Shown piece by piece: positions 5,300-23,920 of a stretch of DNA of 46,257 nucleotides (its first letter is position 1; each line of letters starts with the position of its first letter). The translations under genes were made by a program, and so were the position numbers. A model generated the notes under the pieces. That model was not told where the DNA came from, made no database searches, and saw nothing but the letters and a program-made list of their open reading frames with translations. This DNA comes from a virus. The DNA lies in the IMG/VR virus record IMGVR_UViG_3300049433_000155, positions 1-46,257 of that record; one strand, 5' to 3'.

Positions 5300-5493
5300 G
5301 CGCTATGGCGACCGTACTCGCCATTGATACTAGTGCTGGTCACATCTAGTTCCTTGGCCATCCTATACAATGTGGATCGCGAGTACCCCTGCGCATAGGC
5401 TTCTGCATGGATAATGTCGGAGCGTACTGGCCCGTCCTTCAGTATCAATTCTAGCCACTCTCTGCAACTGTCTTTCTGATAGATCTTCCGCAT
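5287..5493 (-). CDS. Winged-helix/HTH small DNA-binding protein
   Basis: A 68-aa protein. I place the start at ATG 5493 because a full AGGAGG Shine-Dalgarno sits six bases upstream; an in-frame GTG at 5529 lies inside a large hairpin and is unlikely. WLELILKDGPVRSDII, then SRSTLYRMAKELDV, forms a helix-turn-helix like that at the ends of phage helicase/primase and RepA-like proteins. It may bind DNA as a regulator or a detached primase-accessory domain. It follows the hairpin at 5511-5549. Confidence 0.65.
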   Translation of the reverse strand: MRKIYQKDSCREWLELILKDGPVRSDIIHAEAYAQGYSRSTLYRMAKELDVTSTSINGEYGRHSAWSL

Positions 5494-5510
5494 ACTGGCC
5501 TCCTGGATAG

Positions 5511-5549
5511 CATGGAAGCTAGTTCCCACACTGAGAACTAGCTTCCATG
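5511..5549. promoter_or_regulatory. 15-bp perfect stem-loop in the P1 operon
   Basis: Arms at 5511-5525 and 5535-5549 are perfectly complementary (15 bp) around a 9-base loop. It lies between the genes at 5566-5853 and 5287-5493. On the minus-strand transcript it is not followed by a U tract, so it is more likely a processing or stability element, an attenuator or a protein-binding operator than a simple intrinsic terminator. It ends 12 bases before the AGGAGG ribosome site of the next gene. Confidence 0.8.
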
Positions 5550-5565
5550 ACTGAAACTGCCGAGG

Positions 5566-5853
5566 TTACGCGCTGGTTGAGATGTCTCGCTTCGTCGCAC
5601 TGACACGGAATTCGAGGACCCATTCACCCGTGTCGGGGTCTTCGACGACCTTGGCCCGAAGACCCTGACCGTTCTCGTTCAGGTACGAGCGAAGCTTGGT
5701 GGCTACTGCCTTGGCAGCCTTCTCGGTGTCGAACACTGCCTCCATGGCGTCGCCGGTGATGACGGATTCCTTTGCCGCCTGAAGCAGCTCGGCGTCCAGG
5801 GCGATCTTGTCGTTGCGAACCAGGTGCGAACCTGCTGACTGACGTACGATCAT
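5566..5853 (-). CDS. Hypothetical early protein
   Basis: A 95-aa protein (MIVRQSAGSHLVRNDKIAL...) with a helical first half and a beta-rich end (GEWVLEFRVSATKRD). A strong AAGGAG site stands about nine bases before the ATG. It lies between the SSB-like gene and the 15-bp hairpin, so it is probably made in larger amounts than the genes after the hairpin. No family recognised. Confidence 0.65.
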   Translation of the reverse strand: MIVRQSAGSHLVRNDKIALDAELLQAAKESVITGDAMEAVFDTEKAAKAVATKLRSYLNENGQGLRAKVVEDPDTGEWVLEFRVSATKRDISTSA

Positions 5854-5876
5854 TGCTACTACTCCTTCTGGTGGGG

Positions 5877-6509
5877 TTACTTACTGAGAGCTTTCATCTG
5901 GGCTAGCGTCAGCGGCTCGTCATCGAGCAGGTCGCCGACTTCCGCGTTGATCTCTTCCTGGGTCTTCTCCTGCTCTGGTTGAGGGCCGATGAAAGCATCG
6001 CACTGATCAACCTCAGCATCAGTGGGGATGCGATACTCCGCCACCCAGATCTTGGGTGCGTCCTGGTTGGGCTTCTTGTTCTTGAAGTCGTCTGCATCGT
6101 ACCGCAGCGTCAGCGGGCCGTACAGCTCCAGGTTAGCCACCAGCCGGAACGCAGCTTGGATGGCGAAATGCTGCTTGTCTGAGGCGTAGATCCGACGTGC
6201 TCCGTTGTCCTCGCCCAGGCTACTCGGATCGAGACCTTTGGCGGCACGGTTGCCTGCGATTTTCTTGCAGAAGTGGCAGGTCTTTGGCTCGTACGGAGCT
6301 TCGTCTACGAGGATGAAATCGTACAGGTGTTCCATCCTGGGACGTTCCTTCTCCTCATCCCAGAACTCCGGGTCGTTCGTGCCGAACTTGATCTTCTGCC
6401 GGGTGATGACACCTTTCAGCAGGAGGCCGGTGAAGCTATCCCCGACGTTGTGGAAACGGGGAGTCCTCCAGGTGGATGTTGCTTCTGCGCTCATTGACTG
6501 ACGTGGCAT
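5877..6509 (-). CDS. Putative single-stranded DNA-binding (OB-fold) protein
   Basis: A 210-aa protein and the first gene after promoter P1. It begins with GDSFTGLLLKGVITRQ, followed by FGTNDPEFWDEEKERPR and a later ASDKQHFAIQAAFR, an arrangement I associate with OB-fold SSB-like proteins of actinophages. A CHFCKK pair may bind zinc. The C-terminus is acidic and ends EEINAEVGDLLDDEPL, like the protein-recruiting tails of SSBs. It would coat replication intermediates alongside the primase-helicase. The call rests on pattern only. Confidence 0.5.
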   Translation of the reverse strand: MPRQSMSAEATSTWRTPRFHNVGDSFTGLLLKGVITRQKIKFGTNDPEFWDEEKERPRMEHLYDFILVDEAPYEPKTCHFCKKIAGNRAAKGLDPSSLGEDNGARRIYASDKQHFAIQAAFRLVANLELYGPLTLRYDADDFKNKKPNQDAPKIWVAEYRIPTDAEVDQCDAFIGPQPEQEKTQEEINAEVGDLLDDEPLTLAQMKALSK

Positions 6510-6801: not shown

Positions 6802-9339
6802 TCACGTAGAGTCACCCAGCAGGTAATTGAAATTAATTCCCAGACTAGCGTCTGATTTGGGTGGCGCTGTTGCCTCATCAGGGAAACCGGCCGTGGCTTC
6901 CAGCTTCCATTGCACTGCGTTGTGCAATTTACCGGCATTTACTATGCGCATCCCATCCACCCATTGATCCATGTGCTTAGCCAGTGCCTTCCCCAGCCGT
7001 CCCACGCTCACTGGTGTGCCGATGGCACCTTCGACAGCACCTTGCAGAGAAACGTCGCGAAATATCTTGCTCACGGTCCATTTACCGTCTCGGTACTCCT
7101 CAGCGATAGCAGCGTACAGAGCGCCCCAGGCATCCGATTCGATGAGTCCGGCTGCTCGTTCCGTTCGCCCCACTCGTCCCTCTGCTTTGGAGTAGGCCAG
7201 TACCCCATTTATGGTCCGAGACCACAACCCGTACTCGTCGTTACGGTCTGGCGCATTGTCAGCCAATGGAGAGCCAGCCTTCATCCAATCGGTGATCATG
7301 AAACATAACGCAGAGATGATGGTTTCCCACTCCTGAGCCATCGTACTCTTGAGATTCTTGTCGCGGAAGTCAGTGCGTTCCCAGGGCTTCTCACACTGAG
7401 CGTCGATTTGAATCCACATCGTCCGTCGCCGCTGATCCTGACCGATCTGGATGTTGTTACCGGTCAGTGCCCACAATCGATCGTTCGGCACACTGATGTT
7501 AACGTTCTTGCCCAGCAGTCGATCGGTCCACACCGGCTCCGTCAACAACCTACTCATCTCGTCGTTGGCTACCACCTTCTCCACGTTGTCGAAGGTGATG
7601 ATCTTACCGGAGGTAGCAGTCAATGCGGTACTGACTGCTTTACGGAACTCCTCTGAGTCCCTGCTCATTCCTCGCACTGAACCACCGTAAAGTACCGACG
7701 CGCACTGGGTAGCTAGTGATTTACCGCTACCACGATCTGGGGCGGTAATGGCGAACAGAGGCCACGGTGACGGGCACATCAATTCCAACAATGGCGTCAG
7801 CAACAGCGCCAGGTACGTTGCCCGTGAGTCGTTTCCACTGTTCAGCCCCGACCATGGGAACTGACCGAACAATCCATCGGTCGACTTCTCCGATATCAGA
7901 TATTCCCTGGCTGCTGCCGATGATGTCCAATGGACAGGTGCTGTCTCGTTGTGGTACATCGGCAAGTAGACAACCTTATAGGCGTCGTCATACCCCGGAG
8001 CGTCTAGTAACGCTCCGGTAGGCAGCACCAGCGGAGTGCGTGTGATGATACGTGCCTCCTGTATCTCCTTCTCTGTCGCGCGACTCATAGCCCGTTGAGT
8101 AGCTTCCTTGGGGGACAACACGTGAACCTTCTCACGGTTGTTTTTGGGACCTTGCCATTCGAATACCCAATACGTGCCGTCCACCAGCGCCACGACATCG
8201 TTGACATCTAAACTGGAATACGTCGGCGCGGATGGACTGTCGTCTTCTGCTGGAACCGTATAACCTGACTCGCCGATGTTTCGGAAGCTGATGAGTCCTG
8301 TTCCACGTTTAAAGATATTGGACAGTGGTCCCTTACCGATCAAATCGATCAGTGAGTCTTCGTACTCTGCTTCGTTGCTGGCGTCCAGCGGGAGACGGTT
8401 GGTCATCGCTCGCTGCACCTCAGCAGGGAGTGGTAGCTCATCGGTCATCTCTGCCGTGGCGCGAACCCACTTCTCCACCAGCGCGTCGTCCCAAGAGGTG
8501 CCGTCCTCCAGCAGCACACACGCTTCCTCGTATTTCAGCCGCGCTTCCTCATGCGTGACCGGACACCACCACGAATTCGTCAGCTTCACCAGATCGCGTG
8601 CTACCCCGTACACCGTCGTATCCCACAGTGCCGACGTTCCCTTGGTGGGCAGCTCGTACATCTTGCCGAGTTTGGCGTGCAGGTAGTCCTGAGCGAAGGT
8701 GGCGGCCGTGGCCAGGGCCGTTTCCGTCAGGGGTGTGGCAGATCGGTTGACCACCGCCTCCTGGCGCGCCCGCTGAGCGTCTCTGCGCGCCACCAGCCAG
8801 GCCACCCACGCCTGAGGGAGGGCAGGGAGATCCTGGAGCGCTGGCGGCAGGCACGGAGCGCCGGACGGCCCGTACCAGTGATAGGGCACGTCGTCGGGAT
8901 GCACGCTGGGCCAGACCACGGCGTAGCGGTAGGTGCGTTGCACGATTTCCACATTGGGACCGAGGTCTGCAACGTGCCCGAGGTCTTCGGGGACGGTGTA
9001 GAAGAAGATACCGCTGGTCTCATCGTCACGTGAGGTGCTGCGGTAGGTTGGCGGCAACGGACCAAGGTCAGTTTCGAAGCCAGCGATAGTCTGGCCGCCA
9101 ACCTTCAGCATATAGGCATCGACATCGAACCCGATAACGCCAGCAGGCAGACGGATGGCGATGTTGTGCGCCTCGGGATGGTTCAACCAGTCCGCTACTT
9201 CTAAATCGGACGGCATCTTGCCATGCTTGCCTGTATACCCTCGAAATGGCGGTGACTTCTGCTGGTACGGGAGGGGGAGTGTACCCATCCATCCCAGCGA
9301 ACGATATAGTTCAGCACTGTCTCTAAACGGATTCGTCAC
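6802..9339 (-). CDS. Bifunctional primase-polymerase / replicative helicase
   Basis: An 845-aa protein from a GTG start preceded by GAGGAAG. Residues 1-190 form a Prim-Pol (archaeo-eukaryotic primase) domain: the hDhD metal motif is VIGFDVDAY, followed by STSRDDETSGIFFY and WPSVHPDD. The second half holds a P-loop ATPase: Walker A APDRGSGKS near residue 535, Walker B IITFDNVE near 581, sensor-1 LWALTGNN near 622 and the arginine cluster QDQRRRT. The protein is expected to unwind DNA and lay primers. It is the only replication enzyme I recognise; no phage DNA polymerase is visible, so host polymerase is probably recruited. A structured leader (9357-9455) lies upstream. Confidence 0.88.
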   Translation of the reverse strand: MTNPFRDSAELYRSLGWMGTLPLPYQQKSPPFRGYTGKHGKMPSDLEVADWLNHPEAHNIAIRLPAGVIGFDVDAYMLKVGGQTIAGFETDLGPLPPTYRSTSRDDETSGIFFYTVPEDLGHVADLGPNVEIVQRTYRYAVVWPSVHPDDVPYHWYGPSGAPCLPPALQDLPALPQAWVAWLVARRDAQRARQEAVVNRSATPLTETALATAATFAQDYLHAKLGKMYELPTKGTSALWDTTVYGVARDLVKLTNSWWCPVTHEEARLKYEEACVLLEDGTSWDDALVEKWVRATAEMTDELPLPAEVQRAMTNRLPLDASNEAEYEDSLIDLIGKGPLSNIFKRGTGLISFRNIGESGYTVPAEDDSPSAPTYSSLDVNDVVALVDGTYWVFEWQGPKNNREKVHVLSPKEATQRAMSRATEKEIQEARIITRTPLVLPTGALLDAPGYDDAYKVVYLPMYHNETAPVHWTSSAAAREYLISEKSTDGLFGQFPWSGLNSGNDSRATYLALLLTPLLELMCPSPWPLFAITAPDRGSGKSLATQCASVLYGGSVRGMSRDSEEFRKAVSTALTATSGKIITFDNVEKVVANDEMSRLLTEPVWTDRLLGKNVNISVPNDRLWALTGNNIQIGQDQRRRTMWIQIDAQCEKPWERTDFRDKNLKSTMAQEWETIISALCFMITDWMKAGSPLADNAPDRNDEYGLWSRTINGVLAYSKAEGRVGRTERAAGLIESDAWGALYAAIAEEYRDGKWTVSKIFRDVSLQGAVEGAIGTPVSVGRLGKALAKHMDQWVDGMRIVNAGKLHNAVQWKLEATAGFPDEATAPPKSDASLGINFNYLLGDST

Positions 9340-9356
9340 TACGCTTCCTCAACTCA

Positions 9357-9455
9357 TTGGTCCGTTCTCACTCGTGGCTTGGTCCTGCGGAATGTCGGAC
9401 CGGGACGGATGCCTCCGCTACCCCGGTCCGAACTATCTACCGCTCCACGGACCAA
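9357..9455 (-). promoter_or_regulatory. Nested stem structure upstream of the primase gene
   Basis: An outer perfect 9-bp pair (9357-9365 with 9447-9455) encloses an inner perfect 10-bp pair (9395-9404 with 9422-9431). A third GGTCC element (9379-9385) can replace the 3-prime outer arm, so two exclusive folds are possible. It lies directly before the primase ribosome site on the minus-strand RNA. A leader RNA switch or a replication-protein binding site are the main options. Confidence 0.6.
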
Positions 9456-9490
9456 CGAGGAGTCGCTCTTTCGAGCATGATCACATTCTA

Positions 9491-9682
9491 CTACGTGCGG
9501 TGCCAGGTGTCCAGTACCTCGTCACTGTCTACTGTGGATGTCCACTGTGGATCGATCTCGCCCAGCATCTCGTAGAATCGCTTCCACTTAGCCGTTACGG
9601 TATTCTCCGGGGGCGTATCCGGATATGTGCCAGGCTGTGTGGTATCGGCAGTACCAGTAGGATTTGGGGTATCTAACGACAT
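9491..9682 (-). CDS. Hypothetical small acidic protein
   Basis: A 63-aa protein with a Pro/Thr-rich start (MSLDTPNPTGTADTTQPG) and a helical end with two Trp residues (EIDPQWTSTVDSDEVLDTW). A strong AAGGAGG site sits before the ATG. It overlaps the upstream gene by 95 bases in another frame, which is long for this phage, but the ribosome site supports it. Function unknown; it is expressed with the primase. Confidence 0.5.
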   Translation of the reverse strand: MSLDTPNPTGTADTTQPGTYPDTPPENTVTAKWKRFYEMLGEIDPQWTSTVDSDEVLDTWHRT

Positions 9683-9818
9683 CTTTCCTCCTTACAATGC
9701 GAAAATAACGTAGGACTTCTTTGGCTTCTTCCTCCGTGGCAAAGCGAGCCTTCGTCTCACAACGAGGCCCTAAGGTTTTAGGAGGCCACTTAGCAATGTC
9801 ATTCGGATTAGCCAACAT
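9588..9818 (-). CDS. Small Cys/His protein
   Basis: A 76-aa protein with PRCETKARFATEEEAKE, then YWYCRYHTAWHISG. The Cys and Cys-x-x-His pairs resemble small actinophage proteins with a single zinc site. AAGGAGG lies only two bases before ATG 9818 and five before TTG 9815, so TTG may be the true start. It is the first gene after promoter P2 and the terminator-like hairpin at 9879-9932. Confidence 0.65.
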   Translation of the reverse strand: MLANPNDIAKWPPKTLGPRCETKARFATEEEAKEVLRYFRIVRRKDVVRYPKSYWYCRYHTAWHISGYAPGEYRNG

Positions 9819-9878
9819 TACCTCCTTCTCTAAGTGAGCAGTTTCTTTCTCAGACGAAACAGCCAGAAGCTAGATACT

Positions 9879-9932
9879 AAAAAGGCCCGGCACATTAACT
9901 TCACCTTTACAGTGTCATCAATGTGCCGGGCC
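9879..9932 (-). terminator. Strong intrinsic terminator or attenuator
   Basis: Arms at 9884-9896 and 9920-9932 form a perfect 13-bp GC-rich stem with a 23-base loop. On the minus-strand RNA it is followed by UUUUU (9879-9883). It stands about 30 bases downstream of the expected P2 start and before the first gene, so it can end transcripts from the right and also attenuate P2. Confidence 0.85.
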
Positions 9933-9966
9933 TCGGCATTACCTTATAGTCTTTAACTCTACCTAC

Positions 9967-9995
9967 ATTCTATCACACCTGCGGCGCTATGTCAA
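9967..9995 (-). promoter_or_regulatory. Promoter P2 (TTGACATAG family)
   Basis: On the minus strand TTGACA is followed after 17 bases by TAGAAT (five of six consensus bases). The expected start is near 9960. It should drive 9818, 9682 and the primase gene. Confidence 0.85.
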
Positions 9996-10003
9996 GTCGA
10001 CTC

Positions 10004-10213
10004 CTACGTGATAGCGACGCCATCGAGTACATCCTTTACATGATGGCAGGCTCTACGATACAGCCATCCGTTGCATGTGCAACTAGCTTCGATCGTAACC
10101 CAGTACGTAGCCCCTTCTGTAGTGGCGGAGGGTACCTTAACCTGGATCGTTTCCACCTTCCGATCCACAGTTTCCCGCCTGGTATTGACCGGATCGAACG
10201 AAATGCGCGGCAT
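10004..10213 (-). CDS. SWIM-type zinc-finger small protein
   Basis: A 69-aa protein with SCTCNGWLYRRACHHVKDV at the C-terminus: C-x-C, then C-x-H at the SWIM spacing. The N-terminal half (ETIQVKVPSATT...YWVTIEA) is beta-rich. It resembles the 94-aa protein at 3015-3299, which has CDCRGFIYRESCRHC, so the two are likely paralogs. GAGGAG precedes the ATG. It follows the RAMP-like gene by two bases and is probably co-transcribed with it. Confidence 0.75.
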   Translation of the reverse strand: MPRISFDPVNTRRETVDRKVETIQVKVPSATTEGATYWVTIEASCTCNGWLYRRACHHVKDVLDGVAIT

Positions 10214-10215
10214 TA

Positions 10216-10923
10216 TTACTCCTCTCGCTTCCAGTCCTGAACGGCATACCTGCCGAAGCCCTGTGACCTGGATGCACCCAGGCCTTCCTTACCCCCAGTG
10301 AGAAACATCAGTGCCCAGTGGCGGTCGGAGAACTCCCAATCGGTGGTGATGGTGAACTCGATTTCTGGTTGGGTCACGTACTCCTCGTAGCTAATGGAAT
10401 TGCCCTGGAAGGTGTGGACGAATTTCTGATCCACCCCTGAGGGCTCCTGAATCGGCTTGCCGTCGATGAGGAGGTACAGCTTTTCGTCTTCCACGAAGAC
10501 ATGCTCCGCCACGAACGGCCGAAGGGACTTACCGGCCGGGGTGGCCACGCCATAGCCCTTGTTCGGTATCTTCTTTGCCGACATGGCTACGACTGAGGCT
10601 TCCTTGATGGCCGCCTTAAGCTGGCGACCTTCTATATACAGACCGATATCATCCCTTTTAAAGCCAGTGAGGTTTTTAAGCTTGTTGACCTCTTCCACCG
10701 CAGCGTTCGCATCGATACCACGATCGATCATCGTCTCTGCCACCAGTGCTTGAATCTGGGCGTCAGTGGAGTACATCTTCGTCTTGATCCACGCCGCAGC
10801 TACATCAGGATTTGACGGGATGCCACCGCGCACTTGCGACTCAAACTTGAGTCGCCCCCGGTATCGGAACGGCCACGCTTCTCTCTCATATTGAGAGAAG
10901 AAATTGAACAGAGGTTCGGGCAT
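10216..10923 (-). CDS. RAMP-like (Cas7-like) early protein, function unknown
   Basis: A 235-aa protein. Three elements recall the RAMP fold of Cas7/Csm3-type proteins: an N-terminal strand GRLKFESQVRGGIP, a mid-protein DIGLYIEGRQLKAAIKEA comparable to the RAMP IPGSSLKGALR segment, and a C-terminal Gly-rich loop KEGLGASRSQGFGRYAV. RAMP proteins bind RNA, notably CRISPR guides. No cas operon or CRISPR array is nearby, so this would be an isolated phage protein. The similarity is motif-level only and may reflect an unrelated beta-rich fold. AGAAAGG precedes the ATG. The adjacent gene-free region with repeats (10924-11675) lies upstream. Confidence 0.5.
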   Translation of the reverse strand: MPEPLFNFFSQYEREAWPFRYRGRLKFESQVRGGIPSNPDVAAAWIKTKMYSTDAQIQALVAETMIDRGIDANAAVEEVNKLKNLTGFKRDDIGLYIEGRQLKAAIKEASVVAMSAKKIPNKGYGVATPAGKSLRPFVAEHVFVEDEKLYLLIDGKPIQEPSGVDQKFVHTFQGNSISYEEYVTQPEIEFTITTDWEFSDRHWALMFLTGGKEGLGASRSQGFGRYAVQDWKREE

Positions 10924-11423
10924 GATGAGCCTTTCTTGGAGGGACAGCCCTGGCAGAGCCTACATTTGGATGCCAGGACTGCCGTTGGTGGTGGGAGGTG
11001 AGGCGGAGCGTGCGGGAACGAATCGTCGCTTGGACTGATGCGACACGTGTTGAGCTGATACGAATCGTCGCTCGGACGGGCTTGCATCGATTTGGCACGT
11101 CGCTTGGTTGGGCGGTGATGGTTGGATACGTGGATGGAACGTGTCGTCTGTGGAGACGGTCCGGAACGGGACGTCGATATGGACAGAGATGCAGTGCGGT
11201 GAATCGTCGCGCGTGGGCGAAAAGACTTGTCGTGGGGCATGGGACGTAGCATGTTGGATGGATGAGTACTGTCGTAGGGAGACGCTTGCGTCGGAAGGTT
11301 GGGACGTAAAGGTACGGGAGGGTTCGTCGGTAAGAGTCGTGTCGAGCCGCCAGTGGGTTGTCGTTCGGCCAGGATTGTACTTGAGTTGTCGCTTGGGCTG
11401 AGTAGAAGGGTAGGGGATTGTCG
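10924..11423. repeat. Gene-free region with dispersed GTCGCTTGG repeats
   Basis: No convincing gene. At least six near-copies of AATCGTCGCTTGG occur on the + strand: 11021, 11063, 11096, 11201, 11383 and 11416, with looser matches between. A full GGGAGACGCTTGCGTCGGAA element sits at 11277. A 7-bp hairpin (10949-10955 with 10971-10977) precedes the RAMP-like gene. The ORF in this stretch on the minus strand has no ribosome site and repeats the same short peptide, as expected from repeats. Confidence 0.7.
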
Positions 11424-11615
11424 CTAGGTAGGGTGAGTGTCAGGACGAGTAGGCCGGTCGTGTGGGTTGATGCGGCGGTGGCATGTCGTATGTGTATCCG
11501 TATAGCTATCCGTCCACGTACCGGAGTCGCGGCGGAGTCGTGTAATTACCGCCTTGTAGTTTCCCGGAGGCAACCGCTGAGCGGCCTTGTGGGCCAAGAT
11601 CTTTCCCGGACCCAC
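11424..11615 (-). CDS. Possible small ORF
   Basis: A 63-codon ORF from a GTG at 11615. The middle (LPPGNYKAVITRL) looks protein-like, but the end is a low-complexity Thr/His/Arg run and no ribosome site is close. It overlaps an 8-bp inverted repeat (CTTGTGGG/CCCACAAG). It may be a remnant or not be translated. Confidence 0.22.
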   Translation of the reverse strand: MGPGKILAHKAAQRLPPGNYKAVITRLRRDSGTWTDSYTDTHTTCHRRINPHDRPTRPDTHPT

Positions 11616-11675
11616 AAGACTACGAACTCACCTAGGAAAGGTTGCCAGCGGGGCGCTCAGCGGGCGGAGGAGGGG

Positions 11676-12302
11676 TTAGCCGACCGTCCCGTACGCCACG
11701 CCGTCTGCGTCTTCCACTTCGCCGGGCGGTGTGACGTAGGGAGACGCTTGAGGAGTCAGATCCTGGCGGATCTGAAGGTACTCCACCTCCGTGAGATCCT
11801 GTTCGGTCGTATGCCCTGGTGCTATCCTAGCCGCAATCGCAGTATGGAAAGCGGCTTCGAAAGTGGACGATAGCGCGCGGGCGTGGTGGAAGTCAGCGAC
11901 GAAGATATGGTCCTCCTTAGTCATGGCGCCGATCCTGCGGACGACATGGGCGTTGTTGATGGGGAGCGTCTGCTGGAAGACCGCCAGGGGTTCTTTGTCA
12001 CCGTCCTCGTATGCCGCCAGTGCCGCTGCGAACTTCGTTGGTTTCTGGCGTTGAGCCATTCGCGCCAGGTAGCTACGGTGGCTCGTTACCGCAGCGGAGA
12101 TGGTGGGAATGGCCTGGTCTTCCAACCACCCCTGTAGCAATGATGGGTCCTCGGTGGCTACCTTCTCATAAATAGAAGTAGCCACCTCCATCGAGACGTA
12201 ATCGGTACCGTCTGGGATACCGTCGGAGATCCTTTTGGCCATCTCGATAACGTAGTCGCGTTCGGTGGGATCGGGAGACGCTTGCGTCGGAAAGTCGGTC
12301 AT
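11676..12302 (-). CDS. Hypothetical early protein carrying repeat-encoded QASP motifs
   Basis: A 208-aa helical protein. I start it at ATG 12302, which overlaps the previous stop (ATGA), rather than at 12320. It begins MTDFPTQASPDP and near the end has LTPQASPYVTPPG. Both QASP segments are encoded by copies of the dispersed DNA repeat GGGAGACGCTTG (12273 and 11739). The centre (TLPINNAHVVRRIGAMTKED, then FVADFHHARAL) has no family I recognise. It is the last clear gene of the P3 operon. Confidence 0.65.
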   Translation of the reverse strand: MTDFPTQASPDPTERDYVIEMAKRISDGIPDGTDYVSMEVATSIYEKVATEDPSLLQGWLEDQAIPTISAAVTSHRSYLARMAQRQKPTKFAAALAAYEDGDKEPLAVFQQTLPINNAHVVRRIGAMTKEDHIFVADFHHARALSSTFEAAFHTAIAARIAPGHTTEQDLTEVEYLQIRQDLTPQASPYVTPPGEVEDADGVAYGTVG

Positions 12303-12529
12303 GGTTCTAACACCTGCCATTTCTCGAATTGAACGATGGGGAGAAGGTTGGGAGACAGTGCGATGGCTTCTTCGATGCGCTCGGCTGTACGGTAGTCTAC
12401 TCCGATGACTATGGTAGCTCCGCTACCATAGGGCTGGACACTGTAGGTCCACACGGAGCCATGGTCGACTCCCGGCTCTACCACCTCTGCCAGGCCTTGA
12501 TACGCGAATTCCAGATCGGGATCGGTCAT
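12299..12529 (-). CDS. Hypothetical early protein
   Basis: A 76-aa protein starting at ATG 12529, just after AGAGGAA; the open frame extends upstream to 12646 but without a ribosome site. The sequence (MTDPDLEFAYQGLAEVVEPG...) has a beta-rich centre (VWTYSVQPYGSGATIVIGV) and a helix (RTAERIEEAIAL). Unknown function; coupled to the next gene by ATGA. Confidence 0.6.
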   Translation of the reverse strand: MTDPDLEFAYQGLAEVVEPGVDHGSVWTYSVQPYGSGATIVIGVDYRTAERIEEAIALSPNLLPIVQFEKWQVLEP

Positions 12530-12536
12530 GATTCCT

Positions 12537-12746
12537 CTAGAGGTTAAGGTTGCGGGCAATTGACGGGCTGAGGATGCGCAGTCTCCACTCGCGCTCGCCA
12601 CCAACCGCGTAGACCGATAGCCTGGTGGTGATGGCCCTCTTGTCATCGAATGGTATCTCTCGCAACTCGTGGTCGAAGAGATCGAGCAGAACTGCCTCGA
12701 TAGCGTCGCTTGCGGCTCCTTGGGCGACGTCAGAATGAGTGGTCAT
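12537..12746 (-). CDS. Hypothetical early protein
   Basis: A 69-aa protein from ATG 12746, which overlaps the previous stop (GAATGA) and has AAGGA directly upstream. It begins MTTHSDVAQGAASDAIEAVL and ends in a beta-rich segment (EREWRLRILSPSIARN). Function unknown; member of the P3 operon. Confidence 0.6.
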   Translation of the reverse strand: MTTHSDVAQGAASDAIEAVLLDLFDHELREIPFDDKRAITTRLSVYAVGGEREWRLRILSPSIARNLNL

Positions 12747-13057
12747 TCCTTGCTCGCCACTTGCGTCGGAGCGTGGGAAGCCTCTCGTCCAGCCCGACCG
12801 GCTTCCCACGCGGTATCGAAGAGCTCACCGGTGAAAGCTGCACGATACTTACCGGGAGACGCTTGAACGGGCGGAGGAGGGGGTGGTGCGTAGGGAAGGG
12901 TTGAAGCGACGTACGCAGAGGATAGGGTGAGGAGATCGGCTTCCGCAGTTGTGAGTGGTCGGGTGAGTTTGTGGATTGCGGTGGTTAGTTGCTCTGCTGT
13001 CGAGCGGACCACCGCTTCTTCGAAGGTCGGGAGACGCTTGCGACGGAAGGTAGGCAT
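12743..13057 (-). CDS. Hypothetical early protein with Pro-rich linker and repeat-encoded motifs
   Basis: A 104-aa protein and the first gene after P3. It begins MPTFRRKRLPTF, has helices, then a Pro run (PPPPPPVQASPGK) and a C-terminus APTQVASKE. The RRKRLP start, the VQASP and the APTQV end all coincide with copies of the dispersed DNA repeat (13029, 12854 and a half copy at 12760). The repeats are therefore read in different frames in the same gene. No family recognised. Confidence 0.6.
   Translation of the reverse strand: MPTFRRKRLPTFEEAVVRSTAEQLTTAIHKLTRPLTTAEADLLTLSSAYVASTLPYAPPPPPPVQASPGKYRAAFTGELFDTAWEAGRAGREASHAPTQVASKE
13029..13048 (+). repeat. Dispersed GGGAGACGCTTG element (family at 11277-13177)
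   Basis: A member of a repeat family whose full form is GGGAGACGCTTGCGTCGGAA, with the palindrome GACGCTTGCGTC at its core. Copies in the same orientation lie at 11277 (full), 11739 (left part), 12273 (full), 12854 (left part), 13029 (one mismatch) and 13165 (GGGAGACGCTAGG). A right half sits at 12760. They occur inside genes and outside them. Confidence 0.8.
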
Positions 13058-13128
13058 TTAGCTTCTTTCTCACTGTGAGACGGGGCTTAGGCATGATTCG
13101 GGCTAGGGCTTCCTTTTGCCATACTATA

Positions 13129-13157
13129 AGTATACCACATTTTCGGCGCTATGTCAA
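13129..13157 (-). promoter_or_regulatory. Promoter P3 (TTGACATAG family)
   Basis: On the minus strand TTGACA is followed 17 bases later by TATACT. It lies about 65 bases upstream of the gene at 13057 and should drive that operon leftward. Confidence 0.88.
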
Positions 13158-13702
13158 GTGGTAAGGGAGACGCTAGGATGGTGGTTGTCAGTTTGAGAAG
13201 AATGTGAGGTTGCGCGGGAGTGGCGGGAGTGGCGCGGGTACCACCGGAGGGATGGAATTCCTACTGGGTTGGTGGGGGGAGATGAGGCGGGCGTGTCTGG
13301 TCGTGTCTGATTGGGGCTTTTGGGATTGCTGGGTGACTAGGGGAGGTTGAGGAACCTACCCTTGAACCTACCCTGCGAGAATCCCTATGGGGGGCGTGAA
13401 AGGGGAGAATGGGAGAATAGAAACCTACCCTTGTACACACACACGCACACGCATCATGCGTTAGGGACTAGGATAGTATTCTCCCATTCTCCCATCGGCA
13501 GTGTTTTGCCTGGTCAGAGGGTTGTGATCGGGTGGGAGGATGGGTGGGAGTTTCCACAACCTCCCCTCGCCGTCAGCTCTCGGTTAGGCTGGAAAAGGCT
13601 GGCCGACCAGTGAATTCGTGGTGGCATGTGTCTTTGTATAGTCTGTTGCACACTGGTGTCTTGTCTGACTGTTTCGTCTGAGAGAAGAGGATAAAGCAGG
13701 AA
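13158..13702. other. Gene-free stretch with large inverted repeat
   Basis: About 545 bases without a convincing gene. The notable content is the 17-bp inverted repeat at 13403-13493, three copies of CCTACCCT around 13355-13431 and an ACAC run at its centre. The last part up to the palindromic terminator shows nothing I recognise. Confidence 0.6.
13403..13493. repeat. 17-bp perfect inverted repeat
   Basis: Arms at 13403-13419 and 13477-13493 are perfect reverse complements, each built from a doubled GGGAGAAT unit. The 57-base loop contains an ACAC run and a small palindrome (GCATCATGC). The position between two early operons fits a replication origin structure or operator; neither is proven. 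Confidence 0.8.
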
Positions 13703-13728
13703 GGGACCCCTCTCATGAGAGGGGTCCC
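13703..13728. terminator. 26-base perfect palindrome, terminator-like
   Basis: A perfect 26-base palindrome (13+13) lies seven bases beyond the stop of the HTH gene. The minus-strand RNA continues UUCCUGCUUU, weakly U-rich. It most likely ends the transcript from P4. Confidence 0.7.
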
Positions 13729-13735
13729 CTTTCGC

Positions 13736-14380
13736 CTACACTGTCGCGAGTTCCCCGTCCACATCAAGCGCCAGCTCGGGCGATACCGTCCGCAGCTCGA
13801 TTTCTGCCGTCAGTGCGGCTTCCTGCTTCCGGGCCACCCTGATCAGGGCCCGGACTTTGGCACGCGCGTTCTCCAGCTTGACGAGTGCTGCCTTGTTTTC
13901 GTCGCCGTCCGCGCCCATGCCCTTGCTGGGAAGGTCACCTGCGAAGGTGGCGGCGACTACTTCGTTCTTGAGCTTGGTGGCGGCTTTCTCCGCTTCGGAC
14001 TTCTCTGCCGTGACCTTTCCGGCCATCTCAGCGGCGTACGCCGCTTCTACGTGCGCGACCGTGACTTTGCTCACGTCCGGGGTGGCGGACAGAAGTACGG
14101 CGTCGGCGGAATCCACCAGATCGAGGTCTGCCAGCCGACCCCAGATGTTCAAGTACCGGGAGATGGTCGGGCGCGACAGGAACTTGCCCTTGCCCTTCGC
14201 AAGGAGAGCGAATTCCTCCGGCGAGACCTTGCCGATGTTCTTGCCCTCGACAGCCTTGCCCTTGCGGACGGCCCTGGCTACCAGAGTGATCTTTGCGAGG
14301 ATTGTTCCGGTCTCCAGATCCGCCAACTGTATGGCAAGGTCCGTGGCGTTGGTGACGTGAGTTTTGGCGATGCTTGGCAT
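13736..14380 (-). CDS. HTH-containing DNA-binding protein
   Basis: A 214-aa protein. Residues about 50-85 contain FALLAKGKGKFLSRPTISRY, reading as a helix-turn-helix with SRPTISRYLNIW as the recognition helix. The rest is Ala/Lys/Glu-rich and likely coiled-coil (KVTAEKSEAEKAATKL). It has its own promoter (P4) and terminator, so it is a single-gene early unit. It sits next to the divergent control region and may regulate the TTGACATAG promoters or bind the origin. AGGAAAGAG precedes the ATG. Confidence 0.62.
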   Translation of the reverse strand: MPSIAKTHVTNATDLAIQLADLETGTILAKITLVARAVRKGKAVEGKNIGKVSPEEFALLAKGKGKFLSRPTISRYLNIWGRLADLDLVDSADAVLLSATPDVSKVTVAHVEAAYAAEMAGKVTAEKSEAEKAATKLKNEVVAATFAGDLPSKGMGADGDENKAALVKLENARAKVRALIRVARKQEAALTAEIELRTVSPELALDVDGELATV

Positions 14381-14475
14381 TGTGTGCTCTTTCCTGATTG
14401 TGTTCTCTACGTGAGAACGTGTGTGCCGGTACTCGGCGAGGGTAGGCGATTGCTTCCCCTGTTTGTTCTACGTTA

Positions 14476-14504
14476 AGTATACCACTCCCTTGACGCTATG
14501 TCAA
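14476..14504 (-). promoter_or_regulatory. Promoter P4 (TTGACATAG family)
   Basis: On the minus strand TTGACA is followed 17 bases later by TATACT. The gene start lies about 95 bases downstream at 14380. Confidence 0.88.
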
Positions 14505-14870
14505 GCCCTAGACTACGGGCTCGCGCCGGTGGCATATCGTGCTATTACGGATTCTCCCTACGGTACGGGTCAACATCCGTCGCTATTATCTCACATGGGC
14601 CCATATCCTATCACCATAGGGAGGCGCCTTGTCTATCGGTCCTGTGAGGGGCCGCGTTATCCCATGCTCCACTTTCGTGCCCGCTTGCTTGCTTCTACCT
14701 TACCTATCGGCAGGCTTGACCCCTTCCTTAGTAGTTCTCACGATGAGTAGTGCTTGGCTTCCTGTGTGGCTAACCGGCCCGCTTGGGCCTACCCTAATTG
14801 TAGCTCGGAGTGAGCCTCAATGGTAACTCTAGCCCCATTTTAAGTGTGTGCTAAGTCTCATCTCTAGCCC
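14505..14870. other. Divergent control region, gene-free
   Basis: About 366 bases between the leftward P4 and rightward P5. No ORF with a ribosome site, no tRNA and no large inverted repeat could be seen. It separates the two transcription halves of the genome. Confidence 0.6.
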
Positions 14871-14900
14871 TTGACATAGACTAGAGTTGTGTGTTAGGGT
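14871..14900 (+). promoter_or_regulatory. Promoter P5, rightward (TTGACATAG family)
   Basis: The only family member on the + strand: TTGACATAG with a weak -10 (TAGGGT after 18 bases). CTCTAG and CTAGAG form an inverted repeat flanking the -35 (14862-14886), a candidate operator. It should start the late operon. Confidence 0.65.
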
Positions 14901-14950
14901 GTGTGTGGCCCCTGTGAATTTTGTGGCTGGTGGGGACATGGGCCGAACTA

Positions 14951-15075
14951 CAGACTCAGCTTCTGTAATAATAAATGAAAATAATAAATGAAATAGACCC
15001 ATTTGTTCCGCTGGCTCCTTCAGACTCAGCTTCTGTAATAATAAATGAAAATAATAAATGAAAAAGACCTATTTG
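14951..15075 (+). repeat. AT-rich direct repeat, two copies of about 55 bp
   Basis: The unit starting CAGACTCAGCTTCTG and running through two AATAAATGAAA blocks occurs at 14951-15005 and 15021-15075, offset by 70 bp, with few differences. It is far more AT-rich than its surroundings. It lies in the leader of the sigma-like gene, downstream of P5. Confidence 0.9.
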
Positions 15076-15114
15076 CGAGGATTTGCTCGCTTCACTCTGC
15101 GCTGGTAGGATGGG

Positions 15115-16509: not shown

Positions 16510-17079
16510 GTGGACACACTTCAAGCCCGGCAGGCATATGAGCTTAAGCTGGCAGGCGCTGAACGTCTTGACATTCGTTCTGGAGTGTGGTATGGTCGGC
16601 CCGTGAGAGAAATTCAGGTGGGTGGCCACAAAGGTGGCTCTGTGTCGGTTGTAGCATTCGTGGACGACGAGGACTATGAGAGGGTAAATCAAGTCAAGTG
16701 GTCAATTCATCACGCCGCCAATACTACATATGTAGCCCGCAGATATGCAGCTGGATATGAAATGTTGCACTGGTTTATTATGGGTGAAAAGCATATAGAC
16801 CATATCGACCATAATGGGTTGAATAACTGTCGGTCAAATTTGCGCGCAGGTGGGCAGTTTGGTAATAATAGGAACACCCGTAAAATTAAGCCTACTTCGT
16901 CCCAGTACAAGGGAGTTTGCTGGGACAAGTCTCGTAATAAGTGGCAGAGTAAGATCACAGTAAACTATGAATCCAAGTATCTTGGTCGGTTCGCTGATGA
17001 AATCGAGGCGGCAAAGGCTTATGACAAGGCAGCGCGACTTTACTTCGGTGAGTACGCTCTGCTGAACTGTGGGGGGTGA
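16510..17079 (+). CDS. HNH homing endonuclease with AP2 domain, fused to a TerS-like start
   Basis: A 189-aa protein from GTG 16510. Residues about 80-115 hold the HNH_3 pattern (LHWFIMG, then HIDHIDHNGLNNCRSNLR). Residues 133-185 form an AP2 DNA-binding domain (SQYKGVCWDKSRNKWQ, then YLGRFADEIEAAKAYD). The first 16 residues (VDTLQARQAYELKLAG) copy the first helix of the small terminase encoded just downstream (TLLARQAYELKLAG at 17097), with mostly synonymous base differences. The gene therefore appears to have inserted into terS, capturing the old start while a new start was made behind it. Free-standing endonucleases of this class cut intron- or endonuclease-free alleles. Confidence 0.85.
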   Translation: MDTLQARQAYELKLAGAERLDIRSGVWYGRPVREIQVGGHKGGSVSVVAFVDDEDYERVNQVKWSIHHAANTTYVARRYAAGYEMLHWFIMGEKHIDHIDHNGLNNCRSNLRAGGQFGNNRNTRKIKPTSSQYKGVCWDKSRNKWQSKITVNYESKYLGRFADEIEAAKAYDKAARLYFGEYALLNCGG

Positions 17080-17153: not shown

Positions 17154-17493
17154 TATTGCGGAAAAGCTGCAAGTGACGGTGGAGGAGGCCAATGCTCTCG
17201 TCACCGATTATGCCGACACTATGCCCTCACCTAGCAACACTGAAGCGCGTCGTACCGAGGTGGCCCGCGTTGATCTGTGGCTGGCGAGGGTGGATGCTGC
17301 GTGGGTATCTAAGGAATTGCCGATCGAGAAGGCTGTGACGGCGTTTACGCGCCTGTCGGAGCGCCGTTGTAAACTGTTAGGGTTAGACGCTCCTTCCCGA
17401 GCTGAGATCGAAGCTACTCTTCATGCCGTTACCCCAGGCGCCATCGAAGATGAGCTGGCTCGCCTCTCTACGGAATTGGGGTTTAATGTCTAA
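17140..17493 (+). CDS. terS: Small terminase subunit (main part)
   Basis: A 117-aa frame with TAFDIAEKLQVTVEEANALV (helices 2 and 3 of the HTH), then RRTEVARVDLWLARVDAAW and RLSERRCKLLGLDAP, a pattern usual in actinophage small terminases. TerS selects the phage DNA for packaging and hands it to TerL. ATG 17140 has a poor ribosome site, and the missing first helix is in the overlapping 17085 frame. The gene is directly followed by TerL with an 8-base overlap. The HNH-AP2 gene sits at its 5-prime side. Confidence 0.75.
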   Translation: MTAFDIAEKLQVTVEEANALVTDYADTMPSPSNTEARRTEVARVDLWLARVDAAWVSKELPIEKAVTAFTRLSERRCKLLGLDAPSRAEIEATLHAVTPGAIEDELARLSTELGFNV

Positions 17494-19942
17494 GTTGGAC
17501 TCCATTGCACGTTATCGCGAGCTGCTGAAGTATCAGTGGTTGTGCGGTGATCCTTATTGCGATGGAAAACCACATAAGGGCTTTCCTCATCGACACGCAC
17601 GAGGGGAACAACGTGTCGTTGGTGATGCCTACATTACAGCCTTCGTCACCGGGCGTGGGTGGGGTAAACTGTTACGTATGAGCACACCGATTCCCACACC
17701 ATCCGGCTGGACGATGATGAGCGATCTTCAAGTGGGAGATCGTGTCTTTGATGAATCTGGTCGTACCTGTTCTGTGACCGCTGTGTTCGATGAAGTACCG
17801 GAGCGGGTTTATCAGCTCAACTTTTCGGACGGTGCGTCAGTGGTGGCTGGCGGGGAGCACCAGTGGGTGACGTGGACGGCAGCGGATCGTAAGGCGCTTA
17901 ATCGCTGCCAGTCTCATGATCAGCGCACTGGATTCCCTGTGAACTGGCCTACTTGGCGAGCCCAGGGCCGGTGGGGCTCTAGGATAGATGTCCGAGGTCC
18001 AGATATCCGCACTACGGATGACATAGTTGCTACTTTGACTGTGAGTTCTCGCGGAGACACCAACCACTCTATTCCGAACACTCTTCCCCTTCAACTCCCA
18101 GAAGAGATTCTTCCAGTGGCCCCGTGGTTATTGGGTTTCTGGCTAGGGGACGGCTCTACAACTTCAGGAGAACTTACGGTCGGAGCTGAGGACTTTGCCT
18201 TCGTGGCGTCTCAGACTGCACTTAGTCACAACTACGAGAAGCGTGAGGGATTTGCTGGCCGGTACAATGTTCCAGGTCTTATAACCCAACTTCGTTATCT
18301 AGGAGTATTGGGCAATAAGCACGTGCCTAATCTCTATCTTCGAGCTTCAGAGATGCAACGCCGGGATCTACTGGCTGGGCTATTAGACAGTGACGGGTAT
18401 ATTGATCCTGTCTCGGGACAAGTGGAGTTCACTTCCACCGTTGAGGCTCTAGCCGATAATGTCATAGAGCTTGCTCGGTCTTTAGGCATGAAGCCTCACG
18501 TCTCTAAGTGTCGAGCTACCTTGAACGGTGTCGATTGCGGGCCTAAGTGGCGTGTGTTCTGGCGGCCTCTCACTAACTGCTTCCGGCTCCCACGTAAGGC
18601 TAACGAATTCCATCCACTTGAATCTCAAGCTCTTCGTAATTATCACCGAATGATTAGCTCGGTAGAAAAATTGCCAGTAGAGCCGATGCGTTGTATTACG
18701 GTGGACTCGCCGAACAGTATGTACCTTGCTGGTGAGGGAATGATTCCTACTCACAACACTCGCACCGCAGCCGAATATGTTAAAGCTCGGATGCTCAATG
18801 AGCCTGGCCACCGTGTGATTGTGGTAGCGCCGGTGGCAGCAGTGGGTAAGCTAGTGTGTATTGAAGGTGAGTCGGGTCTGCTTAGTGTCTTGCCCTCCGA
18901 CAGGGTTGCCAACTGGTCTCGGTCGCTTGGTGAGCTGGTGCTGAAGAACGGCTCTCAGCTCAAACTTTTCGGTGCGTACTCGCGCGACGACGCCGATTCG
19001 ATACGAGGCAGTCAATCGCATACCCTATGGGCCGAGGAATTAGCTACTTGGAGGCACCAGGAATTCGCATGGGACATGGCGATGATGGCTAATCGGCTAG
19101 GTAATGACGCTAAGGTGGTCGTGACGTCTACTCCTCGCCCCACTACGCTCATAAAGAAACTGATGAACATGGACAATGTTACTATCATAACTGGGTCCAC
19201 GTTCGATAATCAAGATAATCTGGCCGACGCCTATATCAAGCACTTGACCTCAAACTACGAGGGCACTAGGATGGGCCAGCAGGAGTTGTATGGTCAACTG
19301 CTTGAGGACATTGCGGGGGCTATGTGGAACACTGAGATGTTCCGATATCCTGAGAAGTTGCCGGAATTCGTGCGTATCTCAGTGGCTATCGACCCACCCG
19401 GTGGTCATCGGCTGGGCACTAACGCAAAGTGTGGTATCGTCGCTGTGGGTTTAGCTGCTGATGGTCTGCTATATGTTCTAGCGGATCGCTCCGGTCACTT
19501 CTCTCCAGAGCAGTGGGCCCAGACAGCGATTGATTTATACGATGAGCTGGAAGCGGACGTTATCACCATCGAGAACAACTTCGGTGGTGCGATGTGTGCT
19601 TCAGTGGTTAAGGCGGCTGGATTCACCGGTCGTATCCATACCGTTCGAGCCTCCCGTGGGAAGCAGCTTAGAGCCGAACCTGTTGTGTCTCTTTATGAGA
19701 AGAAGAGGGTCTTTCACGTCCAAGGTTTGGAAGACTTGGAGAAGCAGATGACAAGTTGGGTGCCGCCCGGCCAGGTTGAGGTTGATTCTAATGGCATCGA
19801 GACGCCAATACCAGCGTCTGACTATTCCCCAGATGGTATAGATGCTCTGGTTTGGGCTATAAATGAACTTGCACTGTCACCTAAGCGTCCCACGGTGACG
19901 ATGAGTTGTCCTCCTAGATCGTCCGTGGCGGTGGCACGATGA
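17486..19942 (+). CDS. terL: Terminase large subunit interrupted by an intein
   Basis: An 818-aa precursor from ATG 17486, overlapping the TerS stop. After removing the 363-aa intein the mature protein is about 455 aa. The intein splits the ATPase Walker A between K and T; splicing restores TGRGWGKTRTAAEY. Walker B is HTLWAEEL. The C-terminal nuclease shows acidic residues in VAIDPPGG, VITIENNFGG and DYSPDGIDALVWA. TerL pumps DNA into the prohead and cuts the concatemer. Because the insert lies in the ATP site, packaging needs splicing. Confidence 0.93.
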   Translation: MSKLDSIARYRELLKYQWLCGDPYCDGKPHKGFPHRHARGEQRVVGDAYITAFVTGRGWGKLLRMSTPIPTPSGWTMMSDLQVGDRVFDESGRTCSVTAVFDEVPERVYQLNFSDGASVVAGGEHQWVTWTAADRKALNRCQSHDQRTGFPVNWPTWRAQGRWGSRIDVRGPDIRTTDDIVATLTVSSRGDTNHSIPNTLPLQLPEEILPVAPWLLGFWLGDGSTTSGELTVGAEDFAFVASQTALSHNYEKREGFAGRYNVPGLITQLRYLGVLGNKHVPNLYLRASEMQRRDLLAGLLDSDGYIDPVSGQVEFTSTVEALADNVIELARSLGMKPHVSKCRATLNGVDCGPKWRVFWRPLTNCFRLPRKANEFHPLESQALRNYHRMISSVEKLPVEPMRCITVDSPNSMYLAGEGMIPTHNTRTAAEYVKARMLNEPGHRVIVVAPVAAVGKLVCIEGESGLLSVLPSDRVANWSRSLGELVLKNGSQLKLFGAYSRDDADSIRGSQSHTLWAEELATWRHQEFAWDMAMMANRLGNDAKVVVTSTPRPTTLIKKLMNMDNVTIITGSTFDNQDNLADAYIKHLTSNYEGTRMGQQELYGQLLEDIAGAMWNTEMFRYPEKLPEFVRISVAIDPPGGHRLGTNAKCGIVAVGLAADGLLYVLADRSGHFSPEQWAQTAIDLYDELEADVITIENNFGGAMCASVVKAAGFTGRIHTVRASRGKQLRAEPVVSLYEKKRVFHVQGLEDLEKQMTSWVPPGQVEVDSNGIETPIPASDYSPDGIDALVWAINELALSPKRPTVTMSCPPRSSVAVAR
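17669..18757 (+). mobile_element. Class 3-type intein with LAGLIDADG endonuclease, 363 aa
   Basis: The insert begins LLRMSTPIPTPSGW, lacking the usual Cys/Ser at position 1. It has GGEHQWVTW in block B, RCITVDSPNSMYLAGEG in block F and ends MIPTHN, followed by Thr. This Trp, block-F Cys, +1 Thr set is the WCT signature of class 3 inteins, in which the block-F Cys makes the first attack. The middle carries two LAGLIDADG motifs (LLGFWLGDGST and LLAGLLDSDGYID), so the homing endonuclease looks intact. Class 3 inteins are known from phage terminases and DnaB. Confidence 0.9.
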
Positions 19943-23013: not shown

Positions 23014-23307
23014 ATGACGACTCTATCGATCGGTTCATCGCCTCTAGATCTGGACTGGACAGTCAGGCCAGGGCTTCAGTCGTTTGCTTTGAAGTTTACT
23101 GGGGCAGATCTTACTGATACTGTACTGACGCTTACGGTGCAGACGGTGTCAGGAGATAAAGTGTTCACTGCTGAGGTAGTAGGCGACACGGCGACGTGGA
23201 CGATCGATGAGGATTTCACCTTCACGCATGCGCGTTGTGAGCTGGCAGCTACGACGGGCACCAGTGCAATTGTTATTGCTGAGGGCTCGGTGACGGTAGC
23301 GCCATGA
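23014..23307 (+). CDS. Beta-rich virion accessory protein
   Basis: A 97-aa all-beta protein (LDLDWTVRPGLQSFALKF, then LTDTVLTLTVQTVSGDKVF, then IAEGSVTVAP), like the small Ig-like subunits that sit between fibre genes. It overlaps the next collagen-like gene by four bases. No enzymatic motif. Confidence 0.6.
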   Translation: MTTLSIGSSPLDLDWTVRPGLQSFALKFTGADLTDTVLTLTVQTVSGDKVFTAEVVGDTATWTIDEDFTFTHARCELAATTGTSAIVIAEGSVTVAP

Positions 23308-23597
23308 CGATTTCGCTAGCTTCCGGAGTTACGATCGAGGTTCTTATGGACCCTACGATGCCTGTAACACCGACGGTTGTGGTTCCGTTCCCTCAGGTGG
23401 AAGTAGTACCGATGGTAGGTCTGGAAGGACCTCAAGGGGATATTGGTCCGATGGGTCCTAGTGGGCCTGCTGGCCCGGCAACTATCCCAGGATTCTTCTC
23501 TGGTAACGGGCCACCTTCAGATATAGTACTCAGTGCCGCAATGGTAGGATCAACCTACTTGGATTGGTTAACATACGAATTGTACGTGAAGGAGTAG
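23304..23597 (+). CDS. Collagen-like surface protein, short
   Basis: A 97-aa protein with a short Gly-X-Y stretch (GLEGPQGDIGPMGPSGPAG) in its middle, flanked by beta-rich ends. The end (GSTYLDWLTYELYV) recalls the G-D-x-Y-I-D-x-x-T-x-x-Y element of its neighbours. Collagen-like segments trimerise fibres; their role here is probably in a head or tail fibre. Confidence 0.68.
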   Translation: MTISLASGVTIEVLMDPTMPVTPTVVVPFPQVEVVPMVGLEGPQGDIGPMGPSGPAGPATIPGFFSGNGPPSDIVLSAAMVGSTYLDWLTYELYVKE

Positions 23598-23599
23598 TC

Positions 23600-23920
23600 A
23601 TGAGTTGGACATTGCTCGGTAGTTTGCAAGGGACCCCGGGGTCCTCGGGCAGTACGGGGCCTACGGGTCCAGGTGGCAGTGCAGGTGGTACAGGAGGTAC
23701 CGGTCCTACGGGGCCAACGGGATCACCGGGTGACCCTGGAGCGCCAGGTGACCCTGGAGCGCCAGGTGACCCTGGACTTCGGGGCAGCCAGATCTACACC
23801 GGTGCGGGGTCTCCCCTCGTAGTGGCTCCCGAAGACTGGAGCCCAGACGGCACGGACGCCGCTGCGGGAGATATTTACATCGACAGCCTGACCAACCTGT
23901 ATTACACCTTGATGGCGTAG
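23600..23920 (+). CDS. Collagen-like surface protein, long repeat
   Basis: A 106-aa protein from ATG 23600, chosen for its GAAGGAG site. Residues 8-62 are Gly-X-Y triplets (GSTGPTGPGG, then GDPGAPGDPGAPGDPG). The DNA holds exact 18-base tandem copies of the TGACCCTGGAGCGCCAGG type. The C-terminal domain ends AAAGDIYIDSLTNLYYTLMA. Repeat number is likely to vary between isolates. Confidence 0.78.
   Translation: MSWTLLGSLQGTPGSSGSTGPTGPGGSAGGTGGTGPTGPTGSPGDPGAPGDPGAPGDPGLRGSQIYTGAGSPLVVAPEDWSPDGTDAAAGDIYIDSLTNLYYTLMA

Follow-up and report, generated by a model that had tools for sequence, protein, structure and literature searches.

A viral RAMP gene with a helical partner and a hypervariable pentanucleotide array: very probably a VIPR-type locus with a divergent repeat code

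The window (the whole stretch of viral DNA that was analysed, 46,257 nt) carries a RAMP gene and a partner gene on its minus strand, with a non-coding array between them. The names used below are taken from VIPR, described in a recent preprint (PMC13142463, bioRxiv 2026.04.26.720920) as a RAMP homologue encoded by phages (Vipr) with vrRNAs on its flanks and usually one accessory gene (vap). The features of the locus and its surroundings were as follows, with the evidence in brackets:

6802 to 9339, minus strand: Prim-Pol primase/helicase, early/replication context, outside the system (PF09250, E 2.9e-17; phrog_1156).
10004 to 10213, minus strand: small SWIM zinc-finger-like protein, 69 aa, directly downstream of the RAMP gene (PF04434, E 0.0054).
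10216 to 10923, minus strand: Vipr-like RAMP protein, 235 aa (ORF, 55-member alignment, AF2 model, PDB fold matches, weak phrog_4652 match).
10985 to 11541, reading NCGAC(NNNYC)n on the minus strand: 5-nt-periodic array of about 19 units, putative vrRNA array (periodicity, CGAC count, unit code).
11676 to 12302, minus strand: partner gene, ~208 aa, all-helical, putative VIPR accessory protein, vap-like (conserved adjacency, phrog_4604, AF2).
13129 to 13157, minus strand: predicted strong sigma-70-like promoter, TTGACA-17-TATACT, with extended -10 (consensus scan, repeat family D2).

The RAMP ORF starts with ATG and runs on the minus strand from 10923 to 10216. Three motifs were found in order: GRLKFESQVRGGIP at residues 23–36, LYIEGRQLKAAIKEA at 95–109 and KEGLGASRSQGFGRYAV at 212–228. 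The ORF and these positions bear out the original prediction of a gene with RAMP motifs in that order. The columns that were invariant in 55 homologues (G33, P36, F88, K103, K107, E108, G214, G216, A217, R219, S220 and G224) lie in or beside the motifs, which are therefore not there by chance. The glycine loop GxGAxRSQGxG was near-invariant across the family alignment.

With the single RAMP protein as query, no Pfam or PADLOC model matched and the PDB sequence search returned nothing useful. The sole PHROG match was phrog_4652 (E 0.0027, also the best value in the family), which was matched weakly by 7 of the 55 family members (the window protein and six relatives). The first relative was found in Microcystis phage Mae-JY09 (31% identity, E 9e-22). 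The family was then built with two- and five-sequence alignments, which led to Actinomadura and Streptacidiphilus prophages and 45 IMG/VR loci; further loci were added by a DNA pattern. This gave ~60 distinct members, 55 of which were aligned. Beyond the two seeds, no further member was found among 298 Streptomycetaceae or 296 same-phylum genomes. The family is viral and nearly absent from cellular genomes, and a host defence gene is ruled out for this reason. A single-strand annealing protein or RecT substitute was also considered and ruled out, because RecT co-occurs with the family in 12 of 44 records.

PADLOC matched no defence or Cas model to the RAMP protein or to ten other early genes, and no second RAMP or Cas match was seen among them. 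No CRISPR-like direct repeats were present in 9300–15100. The predicted absence of cas genes and of a CRISPR array agrees with both searches. The SWIM zinc-finger neighbour was correctly noticed as far as a PF04434 match exists, but the match is weak and below the Pfam cut-off. Elsewhere in the window, the terminase large subunit (17423–19942) is split by an intein-like LAGLIDADG homing endonuclease insert, and an AP2/HNH homing endonuclease lies just upstream of it at 16510–17079. Two small ORFs of the structural region (23304–23920) contain collagen-like Gly-X-Y repeats.

The AlphaFold2 model of the RAMP protein, calculated with the family alignment, reached a pLDDT of 88.3 and a pTM of 0.83. 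In the fold search against the PDB, every one of the top 50 matches listed came from a CRISPR effector complex, mostly from Csm3 or type VII Cas7 (best E 3.6e-7; TM of roughly 0.4–0.6 within these 50). In a viral structure library, the second match was named Cas system-associated RAMP superfamily protein. At the sequence level, the family profile had 12 matches to PDB sequences, 11 of them CRISPR RAMPs and each individually weak, and the similarity to three Csm3 proteins taken from genomes was weak as well. In a global alignment including other RAMPs, RDD.GLYIEGRQLKAAIKE falls on RDPLTRQPYIPGSSLKGKLR and the glycine loop on LGGHGSRGYGKV. No conserved Asp was found at either candidate position for the Csm3-type catalytic Asp (GGID loop), in a region where the alignment is uncertain. 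The RAMP fold had been claimed from motifs alone, with a fold lacking the RAMP ferredoxin-like core named as its refutation. The claim survived because the AF2 model matches Csm3/Cas7, and in the predicted structure the protein of 10216–10923 has the RAMP core.

The protein was originally called isolated, which is wrong: it is accompanied by a partner gene and an array, both of them conserved. A homologue of the partner (about 175–215 aa) adjoins the RAMP gene on the same strand at nearly every locus with enough flank, and this adjacency spans actinophages, the Microcystis phage and others. At a few of the most distant loci (L003, L046, L047 and L049), no partner copy was detectable. In the window, the longest ORF of the partner begins at 12320. 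The profile phrog_4604 matched 11 of 38 partner members (best E 5.2e-8). The AF2 model of the partner had a pLDDT of 85.4 and was predicted to be all-helical; a known fold was sought in the PDB for this protein, and nothing significant was found.

The repeat-rich non-coding region noticed at the outset is real; it is the 5-nt-periodic array, through which the locus can be understood. The segments with the strongest 5-nt periodicity in the entire window were located at 10801–11450, directly 5' of the RAMP gene. The lag-5 autocorrelation of the window array had a z of 4.8 against dinucleotide shuffles, and CGAC occurred 19 times where 5.2 were expected. On the RAMP strand, the actinophage gap between RAMP gene and partner is rich in C and poor in G, and CGAC abounds in it. 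In some 30 loci, the lag-5 autocorrelation was about 3–9 s.d. above dinucleotide shuffles, with further peaks at 10 and 15.

When the arrays were cut at CGAC, units of 28, 33, 38, 43 or 48 nt were favoured, and 225 of 507 spacings had a length of 3 mod 5. In 357 units, C was found at positions 9, 14, 19, 24, 29, 34 and 39 after NCGAC with frequencies of 0.91, 0.90, 0.88, 0.85, 0.82, 0.82 and 0.77, and a pyrimidine was preferred just before each recurring C. The 5-nt period cannot stem from codons. Seen from the plus strand, the array reads GRNNN...GTCG. The NCGAC(NNNYC)n code is also carried by the cyanophage and other distant loci. When the units of one sister clade (L051/L061/L074) are read on the opposite strand, they look similar to G-R-C-N-N, which is not far from the published GGY/NN. 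The window array was noisier than those of its relatives. Rfam matched no element or ribozyme in the window, the folding stability of either array strand did not go beyond shuffles, and no conserved 3' tail was found after the repeats. A 29-nt element, GTAGGGAGACGCTTGCGTCGGAAGGTTGG on the plus strand, is present in three copies that are 86–90% alike (11274–11302, 12270–12298 and 13026–13054). One copy is inside the array and two are at the very start of ORFs, in different frames; the element holds a short inverted repeat and a CCGAC.

In 46 of 53 loci (52 from the family, and phage SUSP1 as a positive control), the top 5-nt-periodic segment was no more than 1.5 kb from the RAMP gene, where 16.6 loci were expected; these loci are related and do not represent 53 independent events, and they span actinophages, a cyanophage and gut phages. 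Control periods of 4, 7, 8 and 11 placed 13–17 of the 53 loci near the RAMP gene, which equals chance. In actinophages, the array precedes the RAMP gene as its 5' leader and extends as far as the ribosome-binding site. Where there is no gap between RAMP gene and partner, the periodic segment is found elsewhere beside the RAMP gene, usually downstream. At L017, two arrays in opposite orientations (5401–6000 and 7227–7700) stand on either side of the RAMP–partner pair; L019 also has two oppositely oriented arrays around the pair. Distant RAMP proteins are encoded by three unannotated human gut phages (L106, L107 and L108; MT835477, MT835513 and MT835520). Beside the RAMP gene these phages have very strong 5-nt-periodic G-type tracts (scores 0.93–1.12), in which AACGG recurs instead of CGAC.

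Relatives with a third-codon identity of 0.82–0.83 in the RAMP gene kept the ends of the array and shared few units, and a closer pair (L041/L045) had some array blocks in common. The turnover thus looks like a replacement of content under a fixed frame. Many contigs (L004, L016, L018, L021, L023, L033, L088 and others) stop within about 60–400 bp of the RAMP gene on its upstream side, where L005 contains 286 N. Hence, assembly seems to fail at the arrays, and databases probably contain too few of them.

Three near copies of a 44-nt element with a strong extended -10 promoter were found on the minus strand (14476–14504, 13129–13157 and 9967–9995) and are probably early phage promoters, judging by their consensus match. 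The candidate at 13129–13157 sits upstream of the genes running through partner, array and RAMP gene. The consensus scan saw no promoter on the plus strand, and the only clear promoters were on the minus strand.

Targets of the units were sought in 0.69 Mb of phage DNA. Neither 19 group/skip rules nor three 5-nt masks gave an excess over shuffled units in this small sample and with such short units, and a contiguous target search over the same DNA was empty. Two exact IMG/VR scans for one window unit also returned nothing. As the DNA sample is small and each unit holds little information under the published rule, this result neither supports nor refutes guiding.

In the VIPR preprint, vrRNAs are composed of 9–16 pentanucleotide YNNGG repeats. 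Double-stranded DNA is read by their NN pairs, and 1 nt is skipped in the reading. The targets are mostly competing satellites and prophages, and binding silences transcription. Seven types are described there, whose consensus is GGY/NN or related to it, and some of them have staggered arrays. RNA binding, the gapped code, DNA binding and silencing were demonstrated in SUSP1. VIPR is experimentally known there from this E. coli phage and from a Pseudomonas prophage, and it is proposed as a CRISPR ancestor (all PMC13142463). A literature search found no second paper on VIPR. The 5-nt array had been recognised here before the VIPR paper was found, so that the likeness is not a product of expectation.

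The periodicity scan was applied to SUSP1 (KT454805) as well. Two intergenic regions flanking the gene pair at 28031–29061 ranked highest in 45 kb, and these tracts carry GGTNN-like repeats. From its position beside the periodic tracts, a 195-aa protein of this pair was taken as Vipr. It matched phrog_4652 with an E of 1.4e-96, while the neighbouring gene was phrog_5926 and not phrog_4604. The RAMP proteins of the two phages are therefore linked by phrog_4652, and their accessory genes differ. An hhalign comparison with SUSP1 Vipr was collinear over 115 columns, but weak.

We are confident that the locus in the window is a VIPR-type system and that the RAMP gene encodes its Vipr-like protein. 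The locus has a sole RAMP gene, kinship through phrog_4652, an adjacent gene in the accessory position and hypervariable non-coding pentanucleotide repeats. It departs from the published form in that the window clade does not follow strict GGY/NN (its opposite strand reads G-R-N-N-N), and its units contain only about 4–8 repeats between CGAC marks, shorter than the published 9–16. We judge it to be a member of VIPR whose code is divergent and whose accessory gene is a different one. The anatomy and kinship of the window locus are established by the predicted fold, the constant partner, the hypervariable 5-nt array and the link to the Vipr family of SUSP1. Array transcription, guide strand, reading rule and target in the window phage are what we infer.

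On this reading, Vipr would most likely oligomerise along RNA from the adjacent array, with one subunit per 5-nt repeat. The protein would hold the constant base of each repeat and leave the variable bases for reading DNA. The ribonucleoprotein may then attach to double-stranded DNA of matching sequence in a competing phage or prophage, where it would block transcription, and the helical partner may assist, as vap1 does in phage SUSP1. The vrRNAs of SUSP1 are G-rich; by analogy, the guide in the window probably corresponds to the plus strand and would be antisense to the RAMP gene. Three functions had originally been offered. The RNA-guided regulator is now the best supported, and the guide-RNA decoy and the anti-defence RNA binder have no positive evidence. 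The suggestion of an undescribed system fails in general, as this kind was already described in the 2026 preprint (PMC13142463). There is some chance, which we put well short of even, that the clade is an undescribed type of VIPR. The array of such a type would be continuous, with CGAC every 5k+3 nt; in each 5 nt, a single base would be anchored and at least three would be readable. Its accessory protein would be of the phrog_4604 type, and its DNA-reading rule would be unlike the published NN with 1-nt skip.

An array that leads directly into a ribosome-binding site could also serve the RAMP gene itself. The protein would then coat the C-rich leader (or trailer) of its own mRNA via the 5-nt repeats and control its own expression, and the variable bases would hold no target information. 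The actinophage array is such a 5' leader, the upstream promoter would transcribe it in sense, and no target was found. However, other members have the array downstream, at distances of up to 1.5 kb, or one array on either side in inverted orientation, and array content is replaced wholesale at a third-codon identity of 0.82–0.83 with the ends kept. Moreover, experiments have shown that the related array of SUSP1 acts as a guide (PMC13142463). We therefore consider autoregulation unlikely.

A replication origin is very improbable. Here the array would consist of early-region iterons to which an initiator binds at the DNA level, and the RAMP-like protein would have a role in replication, which would suit the early region, the Prim-Pol gene beside it and the presence of YqaJ exonuclease in 7 and RecT in 12 of 44 records. 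Against this, the period is exactly 5 nt and no helical repeat, the units are not repeats of one another, the array position relative to the RAMP gene varies, and the 5-nt rhythm marks guide RNA in SUSP1 (PMC13142463). An anti-CRISPR decoy or RNA sponge, in which a stray Cas7-like subunit poisons host type I/III effectors, would be compatible with the fold close to Csm3 and with the catalytic Asp that is not conserved in the alignments. Yet a decoy needs neither a constant partner nor a private array, and diverse phages including a cyanophage and gut phages have both, which makes it scarcely credible. The VIPR-type reading is thus retained.

A large branch from actinophages, a cyanophage and gut phages with a visibly different code confirms independently that viral RAMPs are accompanied by 5-nt arrays. 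The divergent repeats provide a second code for testing the VIPR reading rule, and the periodicity scan is a cheap, alignment-free finder of such arrays in any phage genome.

Among known systems, Csm3/Cas7 of CRISPR types III and VII share the RAMP fold and the order of the motifs, GGxP...LYIEGRQLKAAIKE...GxGAxRSQGxG here and IGGID...PYIPGSSLKGKLR...LGGxxSRGYG there. In contrast to these CRISPR types, the locus has no CRISPR repeats and no other cas genes, and the catalytic Asp position is not conserved; the spacing is 5 nt instead of 6 nt, and the sequence similarity to Csm3/Cas7 is marginal. HRAMP and ARAMP (PMC8730458, PMC12669027) also comprise RAMP homologues without a CRISPR array, but they are cellular and contain Cas5 and Cas7 homologues and nucleases. 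The window locus, unlike them, belongs to a virus and combines a single RAMP with a helical partner and an array of its own. TIGR-Tas arrays consist of conventional repeats and spacers, and to our knowledge Tas proteins are not RAMPs. What TIGR-Tas has in common with the locus is a phage-borne guide-RNA array with one small protein (PMC12045711).

VIPR type II of SUSP1 shares a phage RAMP without secondary domains, one small accessory gene, flanking pentanucleotide tracts and the phrog_4652 connection, and one periodicity scan detects both loci. The RAMP protein has 235 aa with a helical insert in the window and 195 aa in SUSP1, and the accessory protein is phrog_4604-like in the former and phrog_5926 in the latter. 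The window array is a long run of CGAC-marked units of 4–8 repeats and a length of 5k+3, whereas SUSP1 has separate vrRNAs of ~100 nt. Where SUSP1 has GGY, the repeats of the window array are anchored by a single strong base, which is C on the RAMP strand and G on the opposite one, along with a weaker second base; the orientation of the array relative to the RAMP gene is reversed.
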